From: Rhodoferax sp. OV413
GTDB lineage: Bacteria; Pseudomonadota; Gammaproteobacteria; Pseudomonadales; Pseudohongiellaceae
Assembly (NCBI GenBank): GCA_943330915.2
Contig: CALQJO020000029.1
Span: 1 to 41,755 of the forward strand
Direction of reading: 5' to 3'
DNA: 41,755 bases
Positions 17,182 to 27,400 of the stretch are shown piece by piece. The stretch's first letter is position 1; the number at the start of each line of letters is the position of its first letter. The position numbers and the translations under genes were made by a program. The notes beneath the pieces are model-generated. The model saw only the letters and a list, made by a program, of their open reading frames with translations, was not told the DNA's origin and did not search any database.

Positions 17182-18855
17182 TTACTCCCTCACCCAATCA
17201 ATCACCGGACCATCATGCTGGATCCGGAATTCTTCTGAATAACTCTGCCAGCCCTCTGGCGATTGATACCGCACGTAGAAACCGGCATCTTCAGCCAACA
17301 GCGCGCGCATCTGTCCCTGCGGTGGCGCCGGTATCACCCCGATCCGATCAGAGACCAGCTGGTAGCTGCCATCAGTATAGGGGCCAAATTGCCAGTTCAC
17401 GGTGCGCTGCCGGTATTCAAATCGCACGCTCAACGACGCCTGCGCTCGCAGACTGGCCGTCAGTTGTTCACGACGCAGATCAGCATCGGCGGACTGATCG
17501 CGCATGCAGTGGCACTGAGGATCATAAGCAAACAACGGCTTGCCCTGCGCTTTCGCGAGATAGAGATCATCTACCACCACCACCGGTGATGTGCCGTTGC
17601 TGATGCCTGATTTCAGATCTGCCAGACCACTGACAAACCACAACACCGGCAATACCTCCGGTGAAGGTTGGTAGGCAACCGTATCATCCTGTTGCCAGAT
17701 AAACTCACCCTGCACATCAAATGCCTGGCCGACAGCGGCCATGGCCTGGCGCTCGGGCAGCGCATGCAGCAAGCTCAGCATGACCAATCCGCCGAGTAGC
17801 GGCAAAGACCATCGTGATGATTGCCGGTCCGCAAACCGACCGGCAAAAAATGCCATCGAAAAACTCAGTGCCGCCCACAGCGCAAACAAATAACGATCCG
17901 CCTGCACAATGCCCGGCGATTGCACCAGCGGCGCAAGAGGCGCCAGCACCAGTGCCGCAACCAGCACACTGAACAGCGGCCACACCGCTGCCACTGCGCG
18001 GCCAGAGGTGACGACGGCAGCACGTTTTTTCCACAAGTAGAAACCCAGCAAACCCAGATATCCCGCCAAGAATAATGGCCATGCTGCGCCACTGAGCAAA
18101 CGTGGAAAACTCAGATAAGTCGCTATGACCTGTTGTATAAACGCCCCGCTGAAATAACTGGCGCTGTCCACATAACCGCCGGCAAGCGAGGGCAGCATCC
18201 AGCTGCGCCACAGCGCATAAACTGCCAGCACTGCAAAAAATCGTGCGCTGGCCAGCAAGCGTTTACGCCACGTGGACTCGGGCAAACACAGCAACAGTGC
18301 GGGCAAGGGCACATACACTTCTTTGGCCATCACTGCCAGCGCATAACTGAGTATCGCCAGGGCCCAAACCAGGACCGACCCGGTTCGCAGATAACGCACA
18401 AACCCGTAGATACTGATCAACGCCAATACCAAGCCTTCCGCGTAATGCCGTGTCATCAATTGCTCGGCCACCGTCATCACCGGCAAACCGGACAAGAACA
18501 GTATCGCCCCGGCAATCGCAAAACGTGTGTCACACCAAAGGCGTAACAGCACAAACAGCAAAAAAGCCGCCGCTGCCAGCAGCATCAGTTGATGCAGGTA
18601 AAAAAACCACGGTGACAAACCGGCCAGAATCAGGTCGATTTCCAGCGACAGAATTAATAGCGGAGTCAGGTTGGCGGGGGAAAACTGCTGCCAGACCGCG
18701 GGATCCAGCACATCCTGAATAATCGAAAACTGATGCGCATGCAATAGAATGGAAGGATCATCCCAGCGCCATCCCGCTGACAAAACGCCCATATTCAACA
18801 GTACAGCCAGCGCCAGCAAAAATGCTGCTGCCAGCCAATATAAAGGCTTGCTCAT
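17182..18855 (-). CDS. Polytopic membrane protein, GtrC/GT-C-like glycosyltransferase
   Basis: A 557-residue protein with about ten hydrophobic helices in residues 5-375 and a soluble C-terminal domain (about 376-557). After the first helix, the luminal loop WRWDDPSILLHAHQF carries a conserved-looking Asp-Asp (Asp32/Asp33), the usual place of the catalytic acid in GT-C enzymes. The C-terminal part contains CHCMRDQSADADLRREQL and a beta-rich end. It is first in an operon with a GtrB-like enzyme and an EmrE-fold protein, so the likely job is to move the lipid-linked sugar onto a periplasmic glycan such as O-antigen. The acceptor is unknown, and strain-specific sequence is usual for such proteins. 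Confidence 0.72.
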   Translation of the reverse strand: MSKPLYWLAAAFLLALAVLLNMGVLSAGWRWDDPSILLHAHQFSIIQDVLDPAVWQQFSPANLTPLLILSLEIDLILAGLSPWFFYLHQLMLLAAAAFLLFVLLRLWCDTRFAIAGAILFLSGLPVMTVAEQLMTRHYAEGLVLALISIYGFVRYLRTGSVLVWALAILSYALAVMAKEVYVPLPALLLCLPESTWRKRLLASARFFAVLAVYALWRSWMLPSLAGGYVDSASYFSGAFIQQVIATYLSFPRLLSGAAWPLFLAGYLGLLGFYLWKKRAAVVTSGRAVAAVWPLFSVLVAALVLAPLAPLVQSPGIVQADRYLFALWAALSFSMAFFAGRFADRQSSRWSLPLLGGLVMLSLLHALPERQAMAAVGQAFDVQGEFIWQQDDTVAYQPSPEVLPVLWFVSGLADLKSGISNGTSPVVVVDDLYLAKAQGKPLFAYDPQCHCMRDQSADADLRREQLTASLRAQASLSVRFEYRQRTVNWQFGPYTDGSYQLVSDRIGVIPAPPQGQMRALLAEDAGFYVRYQSPEGWQSYSEEFRIQHDGPVIDWVRE

Positions 18856-21189: not shown

Positions 21190-21319
21190 AGTTATTCTTC
21201 CTCGTTGGGGAGCCACATCTTAAAACAGATAGCGTGGCGAAAACAACCCGTCTACCCGCTCCAGAAGACCACCCGGCACCAGACGGGTAATCATAAACAG
21301 CATGGTGGTTGTCCGGGCT

Positions 21320-22300
21320 CTAGGATGCCGGCGTGATTAACTCTGTGTACAGGTGACAAGCAACCAGCCGCTCTTCATTCACCAGGGGCAGCAATTCTGG
21401 TGTTTTTTCGCGGCACACCGGCATCACCTTTGGACAACGGCTGGCAAAGCGGCATCCGGCAGGCACATTCACCGGTGACGGAATCTCGCCCTTAATGGGC
21501 GTGGACAGGCGCTGTTTTTCACGGCCGGGATCGGGTTCGGGATTGGAAGCGATCAAAATCTGTGTGTAGGGATGCCGAGGCTGGAAATACACGTCAGCGG
21601 CTTTGCCGATTTCCATCACCGACCCCAGATACATCACCGCCATGCGGTCGCTGATGTAACGCACCATCGACAGGTCATGCGCAATAAACAGCATGGTCAG
21701 CCCCATGGAAGTTTTTAAGTCATTGAGCAGATTCACCACTTGCGCCTGCACCGAGGCGTCCAGTGCAGAAATCGGCTCATCACACACAACAAACTCGGGT
21801 TCCATGATCAGCGCACGCGCAATACCAATTCGTTGACGCTGGCCGCCGGAAAACTCGTGCGGATATCGCGAGGCATGGGCGGCGTGTAATCCCACACGCT
21901 CCAGCGCCGCAGTCACTCTCACGCGCGCATCACCGGTTTGCATATCCGGTGTCAGGCGCAAACCCTCGGCAATGATTTCACCCACAGTCATGCGCGGATT
22001 CAGTGATGCATAAGGATCCTGAAAAATCATCTGCATGACGTTGGCCATTCGCAGGAAATCACGCGGCCGGTAATGCGCCGGCAATTCCTCACCTTTGTAC
22101 ATCACACTGCCGGCGGTTTTGTCATATAACCCCAGCAGCGTCTTACCCAATGTCGATTTACCCGAGCCACTTTCTCCCACCAGGCCCAGTGTTTCGCCCT
22201 CGGCAATACTGAAACTGACGCTGTCGACTGCATGTACTCGTTTGCCACGCCCCATGTCAAAAAAGCGCGTCAGTTTATCCAGCCTGATCAACTCGCTCAT
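21320..22300 (-). CDS. oppF: Oligopeptide ABC transporter ATP-binding protein OppF
   Basis: A 326-residue ATPase of the peptide importer, energising uptake together with OppD. Walker A is GESGSGKS (43-50), the signature is FSGGQRQR, Walker B is VVCDEPISALD, and the H-loop lies in LFIAHDLS. The C-terminal oligopeptide/nickel extension holds the cysteine set CRFASRC...VC...ACH, the cluster-like Cys pattern known in OppD/F proteins. Its start overlaps the oppD stop by 4 bases (ATGA). It is the last gene of the operon oppA-B-C-D-F. Confidence 0.93.
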   Translation of the reverse strand: MSELIRLDKLTRFFDMGRGKRVHAVDSVSFSIAEGETLGLVGESGSGKSTLGKTLLGLYDKTAGSVMYKGEELPAHYRPRDFLRMANVMQMIFQDPYASLNPRMTVGEIIAEGLRLTPDMQTGDARVRVTAALERVGLHAAHASRYPHEFSGGQRQRIGIARALIMEPEFVVCDEPISALDASVQAQVVNLLNDLKTSMGLTMLFIAHDLSMVRYISDRMAVMYLGSVMEIGKAADVYFQPRHPYTQILIASNPEPDPGREKQRLSTPIKGEIPSPVNVPAGCRFASRCPKVMPVCREKTPELLPLVNEERLVACHLYTELITPAS

Positions 22301-23334
22301 ACGCTCACCTCAACGATCTGTGCTGGTGTGCCTTTATACAGGCCATCGGAAGGCGCAATGTGCTGAGGATGTTGTTGCCAGCATCGTGACAGATGCCCCT
22401 TGTCCACGGAAAAAATTGGCGGGTTATCGGACTGACACACGCGCATCGCACGGTCACAACGCTCACAGTAGGCACAGCCGGCAGGCGGAGAAAACATATC
22501 CGGCGGGCTGCCGGGAATGGGGCGTAAGCGGTGATCCTCACCACCTGAGTGACTGGGCATGGCCAGCTTTAAACCCAATGTGTAGGGGTGGGCGGAACGG
22601 TAGAAAATATCCTCAACCGATCCTGACTCCACAATCTGACCGGCATACATCACCGCAACCCGGTCCGCCATGCGCGCGACCACCGACAAATCATGTGTAA
22701 TCAGCACAATGGCCATGCCGGTTTCTTTTTGCAGGGACTGCAGCAGATCCAGAATCTGCGCCTGAATGGTGACATCCAATGCGGTGGTAGGTTCGTCGGC
22801 AATCAATAGGGAGGGTTTGCAAGCAATCGCAGTGGCAATCATCACCCGCTGCAGCATGCCGCCGGAAAACTCGAATGGGTACTGGCGGGCGCGGCGCGCA
22901 GCTTCCGGGATTCTTACCAGCTCCAGCAACTCAATGGCGCGATTAAACGCTTTGGCGCGGCTGTAACCACGATGCACTTCCAGTGTCTCCGCGATCTGGT
23001 CGCCAATACGCATGGTCGGGTTCAGCGAACTCATGGCATCCTGGAAAATCATGCCGATCTCGTCACCACAGATGGTTTTGCCATCCAGACGACGTTGCCC
23101 CAAAAATTCCTTGCCTCGCAGTTTTGCCGAGCCGGCAGTGATACGCCCGGGCGGCATCGGAATCAATCCGGTGACCGATTGCATGGCTACCGATTTGCCT
23201 GATCCTGACTCGCCCACAATCGCCAGCGTTTGCCCGGCGTCCACACAAAAGTCCACGCCACGCAGCGCTTTGACAATGCCGCCATAGGTATCAAATTCGA
23301 CGTGTAGATTACTGACCTCCAACAACGCCGTCAT
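22297..23334 (-). CDS. oppD: Oligopeptide ABC transporter ATP-binding protein OppD
   Basis: A 345-residue ATPase paired with OppF. Walker A is GESGSGKS, the signature FSGGMLQRVMIA, Walker B LIADEPTTALDVT, and the H-loop VLITHDLSVVA. The C-terminal extension has CAYCERCDRAMRVC and a later LSRCW, matching the cysteine group of OppD/DppD. The start codon overlaps the oppC stop by 4 bases and its stop overlaps oppF in the same way, so translation is coupled all along the operon. Confidence 0.94.
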   Translation of the reverse strand: MTALLEVSNLHVEFDTYGGIVKALRGVDFCVDAGQTLAIVGESGSGKSVAMQSVTGLIPMPPGRITAGSAKLRGKEFLGQRRLDGKTICGDEIGMIFQDAMSSLNPTMRIGDQIAETLEVHRGYSRAKAFNRAIELLELVRIPEAARRARQYPFEFSGGMLQRVMIATAIACKPSLLIADEPTTALDVTIQAQILDLLQSLQKETGMAIVLITHDLSVVARMADRVAVMYAGQIVESGSVEDIFYRSAHPYTLGLKLAMPSHSGGEDHRLRPIPGSPPDMFSPPAGCAYCERCDRAMRVCQSDNPPIFSVDKGHLSRCWQQHPQHIAPSDGLYKGTPAQIVEVSV

Positions 23335-24770
23335 ACCGAACTCCTCATTTTTGCATCCAGCGCATCGCGCAGTCCGTCACCCAACAGGTTAAATGCCAAC
23401 ACAGTCATGCTGATCATCACCGCCGGGAATATCAGTTCATGCGGATGTGTCAGCATGGTTTTCAAACCTTCATTACACATGCTGCCCCATGAGGCTGTGG
23501 GCGGCGCCACACCCATACCAATAAACGACAGGAAGGCTTCTGTAAAAATGGCGGCAGGCACGGCAAAGGTCAGCGTTACCAGGATAACGCCCAGTGTGTT
23601 GGGGATCATGTGCCGCCAGATCAGGTACTGATGCGACCCACCGAGCAGGCGGGCGGCATTGACGTAGGCTTCTTCACGAATCTGCAGAATCTGGCCCCTG
23701 ACCAGACGCGAGGTGGCTGGCCAGGACAACACCACCAGAGCAATCAACATCGGCACAATCCCGCTTTCGCCGGGCCCGATGCCAAACACTACCTGAAACA
23801 GAATCATAAACAGCAGGAAGGGCAAGGCCACCACAAAGTCTGCAAAGCGCATCATCACCTGATCTACTTTGCCGCCGATAAATCCCGCCGTTGCACCGTA
23901 AAGCACTCCGATAGCCACATACATCAACGGCGCCAGCAGACCAATAAACAAGGACACCCGGGCGCCGGCCATCAAGCGCGCCAGCATGTCACGCCCAAGG
24001 TAGTCGGTGCCGAGGGGATGCAACGATAACTCAATGGCATCGCCTGGCTGCAAGGCAGCGGGATCCTCCGTCAGTCCGCGAGCAACAACCTCATCCAGCG
24101 TAATCACCCTGCGCACATCAGCGACGATGGTTTGAGGCTGACCCAGCGGCTGCGCCAGCTCATCGACAGCCACCACCGAGTAGTAATAAAGCCGTGCACG
24201 CAAGTCCAGTCTGTCTTCATACCAGTGAACGCCATCACGGGTGATGGATGCGATAGGCACACCCAGCACAAGCGCTGACTGGGGTTCAAAGTGATTGCGA
24301 TACAGGCGGTATGCAGATGCTTCGGGAACAGCATCCCACAACAAGCGAACCTGCTGAGTGGTTGGCTGGGAAGCCAGACGCAAGCCATCACCGTCGCCAA
24401 ATCCCTGCTCCAGACTGATGCCTTCCCACCGTTCAAACGGCACGACCAAGACAGCGGAACGATCGGCAAAGGGTCTCTGGCTGATCTGATCCACATCCTG
24501 CAAGGCCGGATCCACACGCCAGATCAATGGCCCGACAAAGGTAAACAGCATCAGAAAAACAATGATGTACAAAGAAGCAATCGCGCGACGGTTGGCTTTT
24601 AAACGCGCCCAGGCATCCTGCCAGTAGGAGCGTGATGGCCGCACCATCCCTGCTGAGGGTGCTGACGCTGGCAAGGGCTCAAAATCAACCGGCCGCAGGG
24701 TTCTGATGGGCCGGGCGCCTGCCGTGGAATCGTGTTCTGTTGTGGTCTGATCACTCACCGAGGGCCTCAC
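23331..24770 (-). CDS. oppC: Oligopeptide ABC transporter permease OppC with an inserted FnIII-like domain
   Basis: Inner-membrane permease of the peptide importer, 479 residues where OppC is normally about 300. Helix 1 is at about 62-84. The signature start HPLGTDYLGRDML is only reached at residue 251. Between them, residues about 135-219 read like a fibronectin type III domain: VRLLWDAVPEASAYRLYRN, then HWYEDRLDLRARLYYYSVVAVDELAQPLG. The rest is a standard permease with the EAA loop EEAYVNAARLLGGSHQYLIWRHMIPN. An N-terminal cytoplasmic tail of about 50 residues is also long. It starts at GTG, overlapping the oppB stop by 4 bases. The insert lies on the periplasmic side. Confidence 0.92.
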   Translation of the reverse strand: MRPSVSDQTTTEHDSTAGARPIRTLRPVDFEPLPASAPSAGMVRPSRSYWQDAWARLKANRRAIASLYIIVFLMLFTFVGPLIWRVDPALQDVDQISQRPFADRSAVLVVPFERWEGISLEQGFGDGDGLRLASQPTTQQVRLLWDAVPEASAYRLYRNHFEPQSALVLGVPIASITRDGVHWYEDRLDLRARLYYYSVVAVDELAQPLGQPQTIVADVRRVITLDEVVARGLTEDPAALQPGDAIELSLHPLGTDYLGRDMLARLMAGARVSLFIGLLAPLMYVAIGVLYGATAGFIGGKVDQVMMRFADFVVALPFLLFMILFQVVFGIGPGESGIVPMLIALVVLSWPATSRLVRGQILQIREEAYVNAARLLGGSHQYLIWRHMIPNTLGVILVTLTFAVPAAIFTEAFLSFIGMGVAPPTASWGSMCNEGLKTMLTHPHELIFPAVMISMTVLAFNLLGDGLRDALDAKMRSSV

Positions 24771-25699
24771 TTCAACCTGACCCTAGGGTCAATCCAGCCA
24801 TACACAAGATCCACAAGGATCACCATAAAGACCAGGAATGTGCCATAAAACACTGTGGTTCCCATGATCACCGTGTAGTCGAGCTGCTGTACTGCCTGAA
24901 CAAAGTAGCGGCCCAATCCCGGTACAGCAAACACCAGTTCCACCACAAAACCACCGGTGGTAATCGCAGCGATCGCCGGACCTAGCACGGTGATCACCGG
25001 CATCACCGCATTACGCAACTGATGGCGGGTAAAAATTCTGGCCGGCGGTACGCCCTTGGCCCGCGCAGTTCTTACATAATCGGAGCTGATCACTTCCAGC
25101 ATAGAGGAACGCATCAGGCGCGTGAGGTAGGCCATGGTGCCCAGGCCCAGCACCAATGCGGGCAGCAGCATGTGCGACACCGTTCCCCAGCCAGCAACGG
25201 GCAACACGGAAAAGCCCATCATGGCATTCAGATTCACCAGCGACAGCTGGCCCAGCGCGGCAAATACAAAACTCGGTACGGAAATGCCCAGAATGACCAG
25301 GAACATGATGATGTAGTCGGGCAGTCGGTTGCGATACAACGCAGTTAACGCCCCCATCAGGATGCCGCCAAGCGCTGCAAATACAACTGCCAGCACTCCC
25401 AGGGTGGCAGACACCGGGAAATGTTCGCGGATGATGTCATTGACTTCACGGTTCTGCTGGGTAAACGAAATACCAAAATCACCGCGCAGCATATTGCCCA
25501 TGTACATCAGATACTGCTCAAACAGCGGCCGGTCGAGTCCGTAACGGGCTTCAAGATTGGCGCGAATGGTTTCATTGGCCGCTCTGTCGCTGGACAAAGG
25601 ATCGCCGGGTACGTTGTGCATGGCCACAAATGTCGCGGTGGCGATAAACCAAACGGTGATGATGCCTTGCAGAATGCGTTTGAGTGTATAGCTCCACAT
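24767..25699 (-). CDS. oppB: Oligopeptide ABC transporter permease OppB
   Basis: A 310-residue inner-membrane permease, normal length for OppB/DppB. The N-terminus MWSYTLKRILQGIITVWFIATATF and the motif NVPGDPLS are typical; six membrane segments follow. The EAA loop reads DYVRTARAKGVPPARIFTRHQLRNAVMPVITVLGP, interacting with the ATPases, and the end is FVMVILVDLVYGWIDPRVRLK. It begins 6 bases after the oppA stop and overlaps oppC. Confidence 0.95.
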   Translation of the reverse strand: MWSYTLKRILQGIITVWFIATATFVAMHNVPGDPLSSDRAANETIRANLEARYGLDRPLFEQYLMYMGNMLRGDFGISFTQQNREVNDIIREHFPVSATLGVLAVVFAALGGILMGALTALYRNRLPDYIIMFLVILGISVPSFVFAALGQLSLVNLNAMMGFSVLPVAGWGTVSHMLLPALVLGLGTMAYLTRLMRSSMLEVISSDYVRTARAKGVPPARIFTRHQLRNAVMPVITVLGPAIAAITTGGFVVELVFAVPGLGRYFVQAVQQLDYTVIMGTTVFYGTFLVFMVILVDLVYGWIDPRVRLK

Positions 25700-25705
25700 A
25701 CGGTG

Positions 25706-27400
25706 TTATTCCTCAATCCAGGCGTAAGTGAAATCAATTTCCGCGCCGATAACCCGCCGCACCATGCCACGCAGCCGGGGGTCGGTGACGTAGACATAAC
25801 CGCGCTCGTAGTTGGGGATGATCACCACATCTTCGTAAATCAGGCGCTGGATCTCGCCAAAGGCTCTCATGCGCTCCTCTGTATCCAGTGAGGACTGGGC
25901 GATACGAACCTGAGCGTCCAACGCATCGCTGGCATATCGGCCACGGTTATTCAGATTCCACGAGGTGAACAGGTCGGCAAAGGTTAGCGGGTCATCGTAG
26001 TCAGGACCCCAGCCGGCCATCACCATATCAAACTCACCTTGCGTCATTTTCTCCAGACGTTGCCGGAATATCTGCGAGTCGATGATGACGTCCACACCCA
26101 GATTACGCTTGAAAACTTCCTGATAATACTCAGCCTGCATCCGCGAGGTCGGTGTATCGCCGGTCAGCAGTGTCATTTGTGGCAACTGTTCCAGCCCGAG
26201 CTCGTCCAGCGCCCGCTGCAGGTACTCGCGGGCCAGCTCAATGTTGCGCTCATACACCGGTGCCGGGAACTCATCACGCAGAGAGTCATCAACACCACGC
26301 AGCCACACCGGGAACAGACTCTCGCCGGGCAGATAACCTGGCAACTTGATGACTCGGTTGACCAGTTCGCCGGAATCCTGTGCCAGATAAAATGCTTTGC
26401 GCAGGTTCAGGTTACGTGTCAGGCGTTCGTCACGGTGATTAAACTCGATGAAAAATACCGTGCCTTCCTGAAAACTCTGAATCTGCCAGCCCTGCAGCAT
26501 AGCCTCGTCGAGCATGGTTGCGCCAAGATCTGCCATCACAATCTGTTTGTCTTTGAACAGATTCAACAAGGTATTCGGATCAGAGGTCATGTGTGCAAAG
26601 TTGATGACCTCAATCAGCCCACGATTGTCATCCCAGTAGTACGGGTTTTTTTCCAGGCGCAGACTGGAGCCATGCACCCAGCTAGTCATCATATAAGGGC
26701 CGTTGTAGAGCATCTCATGAGGATCAGCGCCGTAACGACCATTAGTGGCGTTGTAAAAGTCTTCCCGGGCTGGCAGGAATGTCACAAAGGCGACCATGCG
26801 ATCAAAGTAGGCAATGGGCGTCTCAAGGGTTACGCGAAAGGTGCGGTCGTCCACAGCTTCGACGCCGAGGGACTCCAGCGGCAACTCACCGTTGTTTACT
26901 TTTTCGGCATTCAGAACAGGGTAAAGAATGAAGGCGTACTGGGATCCGATGGCGGGGGAAAGGGCATTGCGCCAGGCAAACACAAAGTCGTGGGCGGTCA
27001 CCGGCTGGCCATCGCTCCACAGAGAATCCTCGCGCAGCCAGAAGGTGATTTCACTGCCATTCTGCTCCCAGCGCTCGGCTACCGCGCCTTCCAGATTTCC
27101 AAACTGGTCATACCGCAGCAGCCCTTCCATCACATGGTTCAGAATCATGCCGCTGACCGCATCGGTCGCGATCATGCTGTTCATTTGCGGGGGTTCATCG
27201 CGGAGGTACGTGGTGATCGTGTTTGCTTCGACGTCAACAGCAGCCCGTGATCCCCCGGCGGCACTGCTGGTCAAGCCGGCCAGCCAGTTGAGAGCAAACA
27301 TCAAAACAGCAACGCCCAGCAATGAAATCAGTGTGAAGACAATAAGTTGCCGCCCGGCGGCACTCAAAAGACGGCTGTCAACAGATCTGTCTGGTTTCAT
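25706..27400 (-). CDS. oppA: Oligopeptide-binding protein OppA, apparently membrane-anchored
   Basis: A 564-residue solute-binding protein (SBP family 5) that captures peptides for OppBCDF. The binding-protein body begins about residue 60 (NTITTYLRDEPPQMNSM) and includes WEQNGSEITFWLREDSLWSDGQPVTAHDFVFAWR, MLYNGPYMMTSWVHGSSLRLEKNPYYWD and the C-terminal MVMAGWGPDYDDPLTFADLF. The N-terminus differs from usual OppA: a basic cytoplasmic stretch of about 18 residues, then a hydrophobic helix (about 19-44) with no clear AxA cleavage site or lipobox, followed by a Ser/Gly/Ala linker. It may stay attached by this helix. The ATG start has only a weak ribosome site. Confidence 0.92.
   Translation of the reverse strand: MKPDRSVDSRLLSAAGRQLIVFTLISLLGVAVLMFALNWLAGLTSSAAGGSRAAVDVEANTITTYLRDEPPQMNSMIATDAVSGMILNHVMEGLLRYDQFGNLEGAVAERWEQNGSEITFWLREDSLWSDGQPVTAHDFVFAWRNALSPAIGSQYAFILYPVLNAEKVNNGELPLESLGVEAVDDRTFRVTLETPIAYFDRMVAFVTFLPAREDFYNATNGRYGADPHEMLYNGPYMMTSWVHGSSLRLEKNPYYWDDNRGLIEVINFAHMTSDPNTLLNLFKDKQIVMADLGATMLDEAMLQGWQIQSFQEGTVFFIEFNHRDERLTRNLNLRKAFYLAQDSGELVNRVIKLPGYLPGESLFPVWLRGVDDSLRDEFPAPVYERNIELAREYLQRALDELGLEQLPQMTLLTGDTPTSRMQAEYYQEVFKRNLGVDVIIDSQIFRQRLEKMTQGEFDMVMAGWGPDYDDPLTFADLFTSWNLNNRGRYASDALDAQVRIAQSSLDTEERMRAFGEIQRLIYEDVVIIPNYERGYVYVTDPRLRGMVRRVIGAEIDFTYAWIEE

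Follow-up and report, generated by a model that had tools for sequence, protein, structure and literature searches.

An apparent subfamily of OppC peptide importer permeases with a predicted FnIII domain in the TM1-TM2 loop

The opp operon and the long form of OppC

The window (the whole 41,755-nucleotide stretch that was analysed) contains a contiguous oppA-oppB-oppC-oppD-oppF set on the minus strand, running from 27400 down to 21320, as delimited by open reading frames (ORFs) and Pfam. The genes and the features within them are as follows.

25706-27400, minus: oppA, 564 aa, substrate-binding protein (SBP_bac_5); ORF and Pfam
27290-27346, minus: OppA N-terminal hydrophobic segment, residues 19-37; hydropathy and motif scan
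24767-25699, minus: oppB, 310 aa, without insertion; ORF, Pfam and alignment to E. coli OppB
23331-24770, minus: oppC; ORF, Pfam OppC_N and BPD_transp_1, closest solved structure by sequence E. coli OppC 8z21_B
24522-24590, minus: OppC transmembrane helix 1, residues 61-83, with a basic segment before it
24024-24473, minus: OppC inserted domain, residues 100-249, probably periplasmic; isolated model of residues 96-250
24114-24368, minus: predicted FnIII core, residues 135-219; models, 3pe9 fold match and profile comparison
23343-24020, minus: OppC permease core, residues 251-476, from HPLGTDYLGRD onward; BPD_transp_1 and phmmer to 8z21_B
22297-23334, minus: oppD, 345 aa, ATPase; ORF and Pfam
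21320-22300, minus: oppF, 326 aa, ATPase; ORF and Pfam

The oppC product is a peptide ABC importer permease of 479 aa with a GTG start. Its frame (23331-24770, minus) is open over all 479 codons, so the unusual length reported in a preliminary description of this DNA is real, and it overlaps both oppB and oppD by 4 bases. Pfam OppC_N matched residues 48-100 (55.0 bits, cut-off 23.9) and BPD_transp_1 matched residues 288-476 (115.7 bits, cut-off 26.4), with zero Pfam domains between them. The NCBIfam equivalog cut-off for PRK15406 OppC was missed (223.0 bits versus 433), as was that for Opp3C (307.8 bits versus 450); the protein is placed in the family and does not take an equivalog name.

The subunit set is that of E. 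coli OppBCDF and DppABCDF (PDB 8z21, 8z1v-8z1z; PMC12136057), and E. coli Opp and the window system both have separate D and F ATPases. Window OppB aligned with residues 3-305 of E. coli OppB, unbroken across the TM1-TM2 region. E. coli OppC shares the permease core with window OppC (E 1.2e-59), but residues 22-61 and 80-301 of 8z21_B aligned with residues 46-85 and 249-475 of the query, leaving 163 residues between the two pieces in window OppC compared to 18 in E. coli OppC. The long spacing between helix 1 and the HPLGTDYLGRD signature that had been pointed out earlier is therefore confirmed. Helix 1 was placed from helices H61-78 and H80-83 of a whole-length model, at modest confidence, together with the OppC_N match at 48-100, and positions 24021-24497 translate to OppC residues 92-250 (159 aa). 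By its sequence, the gene encodes OppC of an OppABCDF peptide importer that is ordinary in other respects, with oligopeptide transport as the putative function.

Fold and conserved residues of the insert

Residues 96-250 modelled alone with 41 relatives gave a mean pLDDT of 91.2 and a pTM of 0.85. In the whole-length model the insert was again the confident part and the permease part was poor (mean pLDDT 58.3), so only the insert of that model was used. Its FnIII core has strands at 141-144, 153-159, 172-176, 183-186, 194-202 and 208-218. A Foldseek search of the PDB returned as top match an FnIII module of 3pe9, the Clostridium thermocellum CbhA FnIII modules (E 2.0e-4; TM-score 0.72-0.75 by target across its chains, about 0.44 by query), followed by many FnIII chains and some SoxYZ chains. 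When the whole-length model was searched, permeases ranked first and 3pe9 next. The best sequence-profile match was to 3mpc, named 'Fn3-like protein' (E 0.012), which is suggestive only. Alignment of the insert with 21 Pfam-fn3 domains by hhalign gave a probability of 96.9% (E 1.7e-10, 69 columns) compared to 0.2% for a negative control with the permease alignment; the fn3 source genomes had been chosen for matching the insert profile, although the domains themselves were chosen by Pfam. The model, the Foldseek ranking and the hhalign result thus agree on a predicted FnIII fold, in keeping with the beta-sandwich anticipated in the preliminary description. The modules of 3pe9 and 3mpc are named as clostridial enzyme modules and an Fn3-like protein, respectively, whereas the insert lies in a membrane transporter.

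Single-sequence searches gave a different outcome. The gathering cut-off of Pfam fn3 (PF00041) was missed by window OppC and by every other insert tested, and an fn3 search of the window's own genome did not match the insert position. Weak matches to fn3 were found for 3 of 42 inserts (best E 0.017) and to DUF4992 for 8 of 42 (best E 0.008), and a PHROGs tail family matched 24 residues of the insert (E 0.0036). An HMM check for FnIII, as had been proposed, is hence negative for single sequences and positive for profile against profile. The missed cut-offs, the excess of DUF4992 over fn3 matches, the modest Foldseek values (best E 2.0e-4, TM-score by query 0.44) and the listing of SoxYZ would all suit a beta-sandwich other than FnIII. 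This is very improbable given that an FnIII module ranks first in the fold search, that the profile comparison reached 96.9% and that the W/Y hallmarks are present. The insert would accordingly be an FnIII domain overlooked by Pfam searches, in a permease of many gammaproteobacteria and of a family of another class.

The hallmark residues are strongly conserved. P100, W115, V141, W145, R158, N159, G170, P172, D186 and Y197 were identical in 42/42 rows, window included; seven of these (W145, R158, N159, G170, P172, D186 and Y197) uphold the LLW / AYRLYR / YYYSVVAVD pattern read earlier from the window alone. In 18 more divergent rows W145, R158, G170, P172, D186 and Y197 were still invariant and N159 varied. 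Across the 42 rows the polar residues R158, N159, D186, R142, E185 and R187 were invariant or almost so, and the flank residues P100, R104, W115, R221, T224 and G243 were conserved as strongly as the core. Row sets A4 and A5 were drawn from 41 of 80 genome-collection loci, L080 being removed for an ambiguous letter and the unpicked loci being partly short or partial; row set A1 comprised the window and 15 of 29 other loci from a search of 56 relatives, with L022 and L028 excluded for stops.

Distribution, single branch and selection

The insert is widespread. In the search of 56 relatives it was found in 15/15 genomes of the genus (own genome included; one begins at a contig end), in 9/20 genomes from other genera of the family (counting G019, which has one internal stop, and excluding G028, which has 12) and in 3/21 genomes from other families, among them G045, where it lies in two pieces of one frame. 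The excluded G028 locus (L028) matched insert-bearing OppC and appears to be a decayed or badly sequenced copy; within its genus the insert is intact in G017 and G033, and G024 is without a match.

Wider draws were scored only in part for first-look candidates, and absence from them is no proof of absence. An even draw from the order yielded insert-profile matches in 49 of 244 genomes: 43 with frames of 441-985 residues and E <= 3.6e-8, of which 8 were examined in full and all 8 were recognisable as OppC, and six weaker ones (E >= 3.1e-7, frames of 471-4098 residues), which are candidates only. A helix-1-plus-insert profile matched 57 of 369 genomes of the class; a whole-length match was found only in the own genome, the others being to helix 1 alone or to the FnIII stretch in frames that are candidates only. 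Of 398 genomes drawn from the phylum 10 matched: five only weakly, four from a single family of another class (E 1.1e-21 to 8.2e-29), and the window's own. Within that other class the insert was found in 4/48 genomes, with two further weak matches, and the three examined were OppC. The FnIII-OppC loci of this family are L162-L165 and L171-L173; at 4000-10000 of L171 and L173, none of the frames of at least 420 residues was recognisable as OppA. The genome-collection scan confirmed 499 relatives, some of which may match through helix 1 alone; in 80/80 loci retained from it, the match to the 204-residue query of helix 1 plus insert spanned residues 1-188 or more. Carriers with names are, among others, Pseudohongiella nitratireducens, OM182 MAGs and Candidatus Rariloculus; the plasmid collection gave zero matches of the insert.

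The identical architecture in independent genomes rules out an assembly error or chimaera, in line with the open frame and the 4-base overlaps, and the insert is not an artefact. Among the matches listed (154 of 194 genomes), OppC_N proteins of the order are mostly of 290-345 residues, with a second group of 440-540. The length survey that had been suggested therefore has a divided answer: a loop of this length is normal in an OppC subfamily that is widespread, so that the insert is not special to the window's permease, and a described subfamily with a known role was not found.

A tree was built from the permease part only, with the insert excluded (35 rows, root arbitrary). A branch with 100/99 support separates the 21 insert-bearing OppCs from 14 others, comprising 12 short OppCs chosen among the best non-insert matches of the 56-relative search, the own genome's DppC-like protein and a YejE-like protein; very long branches lead to several of these 14, and the bootstrap was incompletely settled. 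None of the 12 short OppCs (0/12) lies within the insert-bearing side. An OppC subfamily with an FnIII insertion in the TM1-TM2 loop, apparently of single origin, is consistent with this tree, in which the long branches, unsettled bootstrap and arbitrary root leave a single origin unproven. A recent one-off domain capture was rejected because the insert is widespread and its bearers lie on a single branch.

For three pairs among the window, L041 and L042, dN/dS was 0.05-0.09 over residues 100-249 and 0.05-0.11 for the FnIII core alone, both compared to 0.02-0.03 for the permease; synonymous sites of the insert are almost saturated. The insert is maintained under purifying selection, yet evolves faster than the permease. 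The single branch (100/99) and the purifying selection make the insert a trait of the subfamily rather than a peculiarity of the window's own genome. Synonymous differences per site in the same pairs were 0.65-0.73 in the insert and 0.30-0.41 in the permease part. They were likewise high in helix 1 in both comparisons that involve the window, and the rise was absent from the closer L039 pair. It could reflect recombination or codon selection.

The tree and the flanks bear on one account of the domain, in which it is a partnerless spacer or stabiliser of OppC TM1-TM2, acquired once and kept because OppC folding depends on it. All sampled insert-bearing OppCs do lie on one branch side with no short OppC among them (35 rows), and P100, R104, W115, R221, T224 and G243 in the flanks match the core in conservation, a hint of packing against the permease. 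We consider this account unlikely, since R158, N159, D186, R142, E185 and R187 are polar and invariant or almost so (42 rows), although some of these residues are usual in bacterial FnIII domains.

Probable periplasmic placement and candidate partners

The basic segment before helix 1 and the canonical OppC/DppC topology place the inserted domain probably on the periplasmic side, as had been proposed. According to PMC12136057, the canonical C subunit is a six-helix protein whose TM1-TM2 region is periplasmic, a scoop of DppB after TM1 enters the DppA cleft, and the C subunit of Dpp is described as strikingly different from B in the region after TM1. On this B/C layout the FnIII domain would sit at the pore's other half, in the loop matching the scoop, at the seat of the binding protein. 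Next to the mouth of the translocator, on OppC's side, it may offer OppA a second docking or capping surface complementing the OppB scoop motif; this would raise the residence time of OppA on the translocator and help to seal the cavity. E. coli Opp and Dpp function without an FnIII domain.

MalF-P2 is a known example of a folded periplasmic permease insertion that contacts a binding protein. It has an Ig-like fold and forms the TM3-TM4 loop, unlike the TM1-TM2 loop of OppC. As described in PMC3150292, MalF-P2 (residues 91-271) is a large periplasmic region, one segment of which contacts MalE; MalFGK2E is a type I importer with a big folded periplasmic region in one permease subunit, a trait probably shared by the importer here. 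MalF belongs to a permease family that differs from OppC, and the likeness is by analogy alone. By this analogy, a periplasmic FnIII platform may hold OppA on the OppC side as MalF-P2 does with the maltose-binding protein; we regard this as the likeliest role, at a probability of about 0.45. If so, MalF-P2 would be joined by an unrelated second case, the conserved FnIII domain of OppC, which lends itself to clean deletion. Tethering of OppA by the insert, raised in the preliminary description, is plausible; tethering of the cell wall or of another partner has no support here, and the label 'adhesion-like' is supported by nothing beyond the name of the fold; FnIII modules in bacteria commonly serve as spacers and interaction modules. 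No binding surface was apparent in the sequence features of the insert.

The only direct data on this platform, which are weak evidence, come from a comparison of distances at 18 hand-chosen insert-bearing loci. Insert and OppA distances correlated with r 0.81 and, with the permease fixed, a partial r of 0.60, a value reached in 0/5000 row shuffles for the insert-OppA pair; the permease-OppA partial r with the insert fixed was 0.29. For 11 of the 18 loci OppD was included (L060 and L176 were out through frame misfit and five others were left out). Partial r was then 0.68 for insert-OppA (permease and OppD fixed), 0.50 for permease-OppA (insert and OppD fixed), 0.54 for insert-OppD (permease and OppA fixed) and -0.34 for OppD-OppA (permease and insert fixed). 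OppA correlates best with the insert, though other pairs correlate too. The pairs are mutually dependent, and no parts evolve faster than insert and OppA, so that shared phylogeny can yield such a correlation.

The same distances (mean 1.28 for the insert and 0.31 for the permease, 18 loci) bear on a different partner. The domain might bind another periplasmic protein and thereby place the importer near a peptide source; the partner could be a peptidase, another importer subunit, or a peptidoglycan or outer-membrane protein. FnIII domains are interaction modules, and far greater variability than in the permease is what a lineage-specific interface would show. This is rather unlikely, because an extra partner gene is absent within the window's operon and the insert-bearing operons with neighbours examined occupy several gene contexts, so that a fixed partner is not visible.

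The attachment of OppA was compared across the same operons. Window OppA starts with basic residues followed by a 19-residue uncharged hydrophobic run without a lipobox, and is likely held by an inner-membrane anchor, a predicted feature that sets it apart from the Gram-negative peptide SBPs described as soluble in PMC12136057. An anchor-like run of 19-25 residues was found in OppA of 13/18 insert-bearing operons, the rest being signal-peptide-like or bearing a lipobox; the run of 24 at residues 3-26 of L176 OppA was interpreted as a signal peptide. A rule by which the FnIII insert implies a membrane-anchored OppA was rejected: L157 OppA has a lipobox beside an insert-bearing OppC, and L156, L158 and L174 OppAs start signal-peptide-like by eye, the scan of L174 having been misled by an over-long start. 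Since OppA attachment varies, the FnIII domain is not a simple substitute for an OppA tether and does not depend on one. It is quite unlikely, in our estimate, that the platform extends to an importer class in which a permease-borne FnIII receptor and an SBP anchored in the inner membrane, as in the Pseudohongiella type, would be pre-assembled and the SBP not freely diffusing. None of the open-licence papers found joins OppC with FnIII in the sense of an inserted permease domain. We found no description of an OppC subfamily bearing an FnIII domain on the probable periplasmic side, which thus appears undescribed; OppABCDF importers themselves are known.

Several neighbouring genes were noted. 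The own genome has two SBP_bac_5 matches in total. At L152, a congener, the DUF3450 gene and oppF are separated by a second SBP-type importer with two ATPases (YejA/YejB/YejE-like by eye), at least the SBP of which is present at L153; unlike L152, the window has no second SBP-type importer between these genes (21217-21319). A 557 aa frame at 17182-18855 (minus) of the window adjoins a family 2 glycosyltransferase and had zero Pfam matches at 0.001. At four of the 12 short-OppC loci (L142, L146, L149 and L150), which belong to related importers of the same order, the two ATPases are fused into one protein of 530-559 aa and the OppA start is lipobox-like by eye, suggesting a different importer lineage; a fused ATPase layout is described for mycobacteria in PMC12136057. 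At the insert-bearing operons of L068, L111 and L116, a frame of 489-492 aa directly precedes or overlaps oppA and resembles, on inspection by eye, a von Willebrand factor A-type protein.
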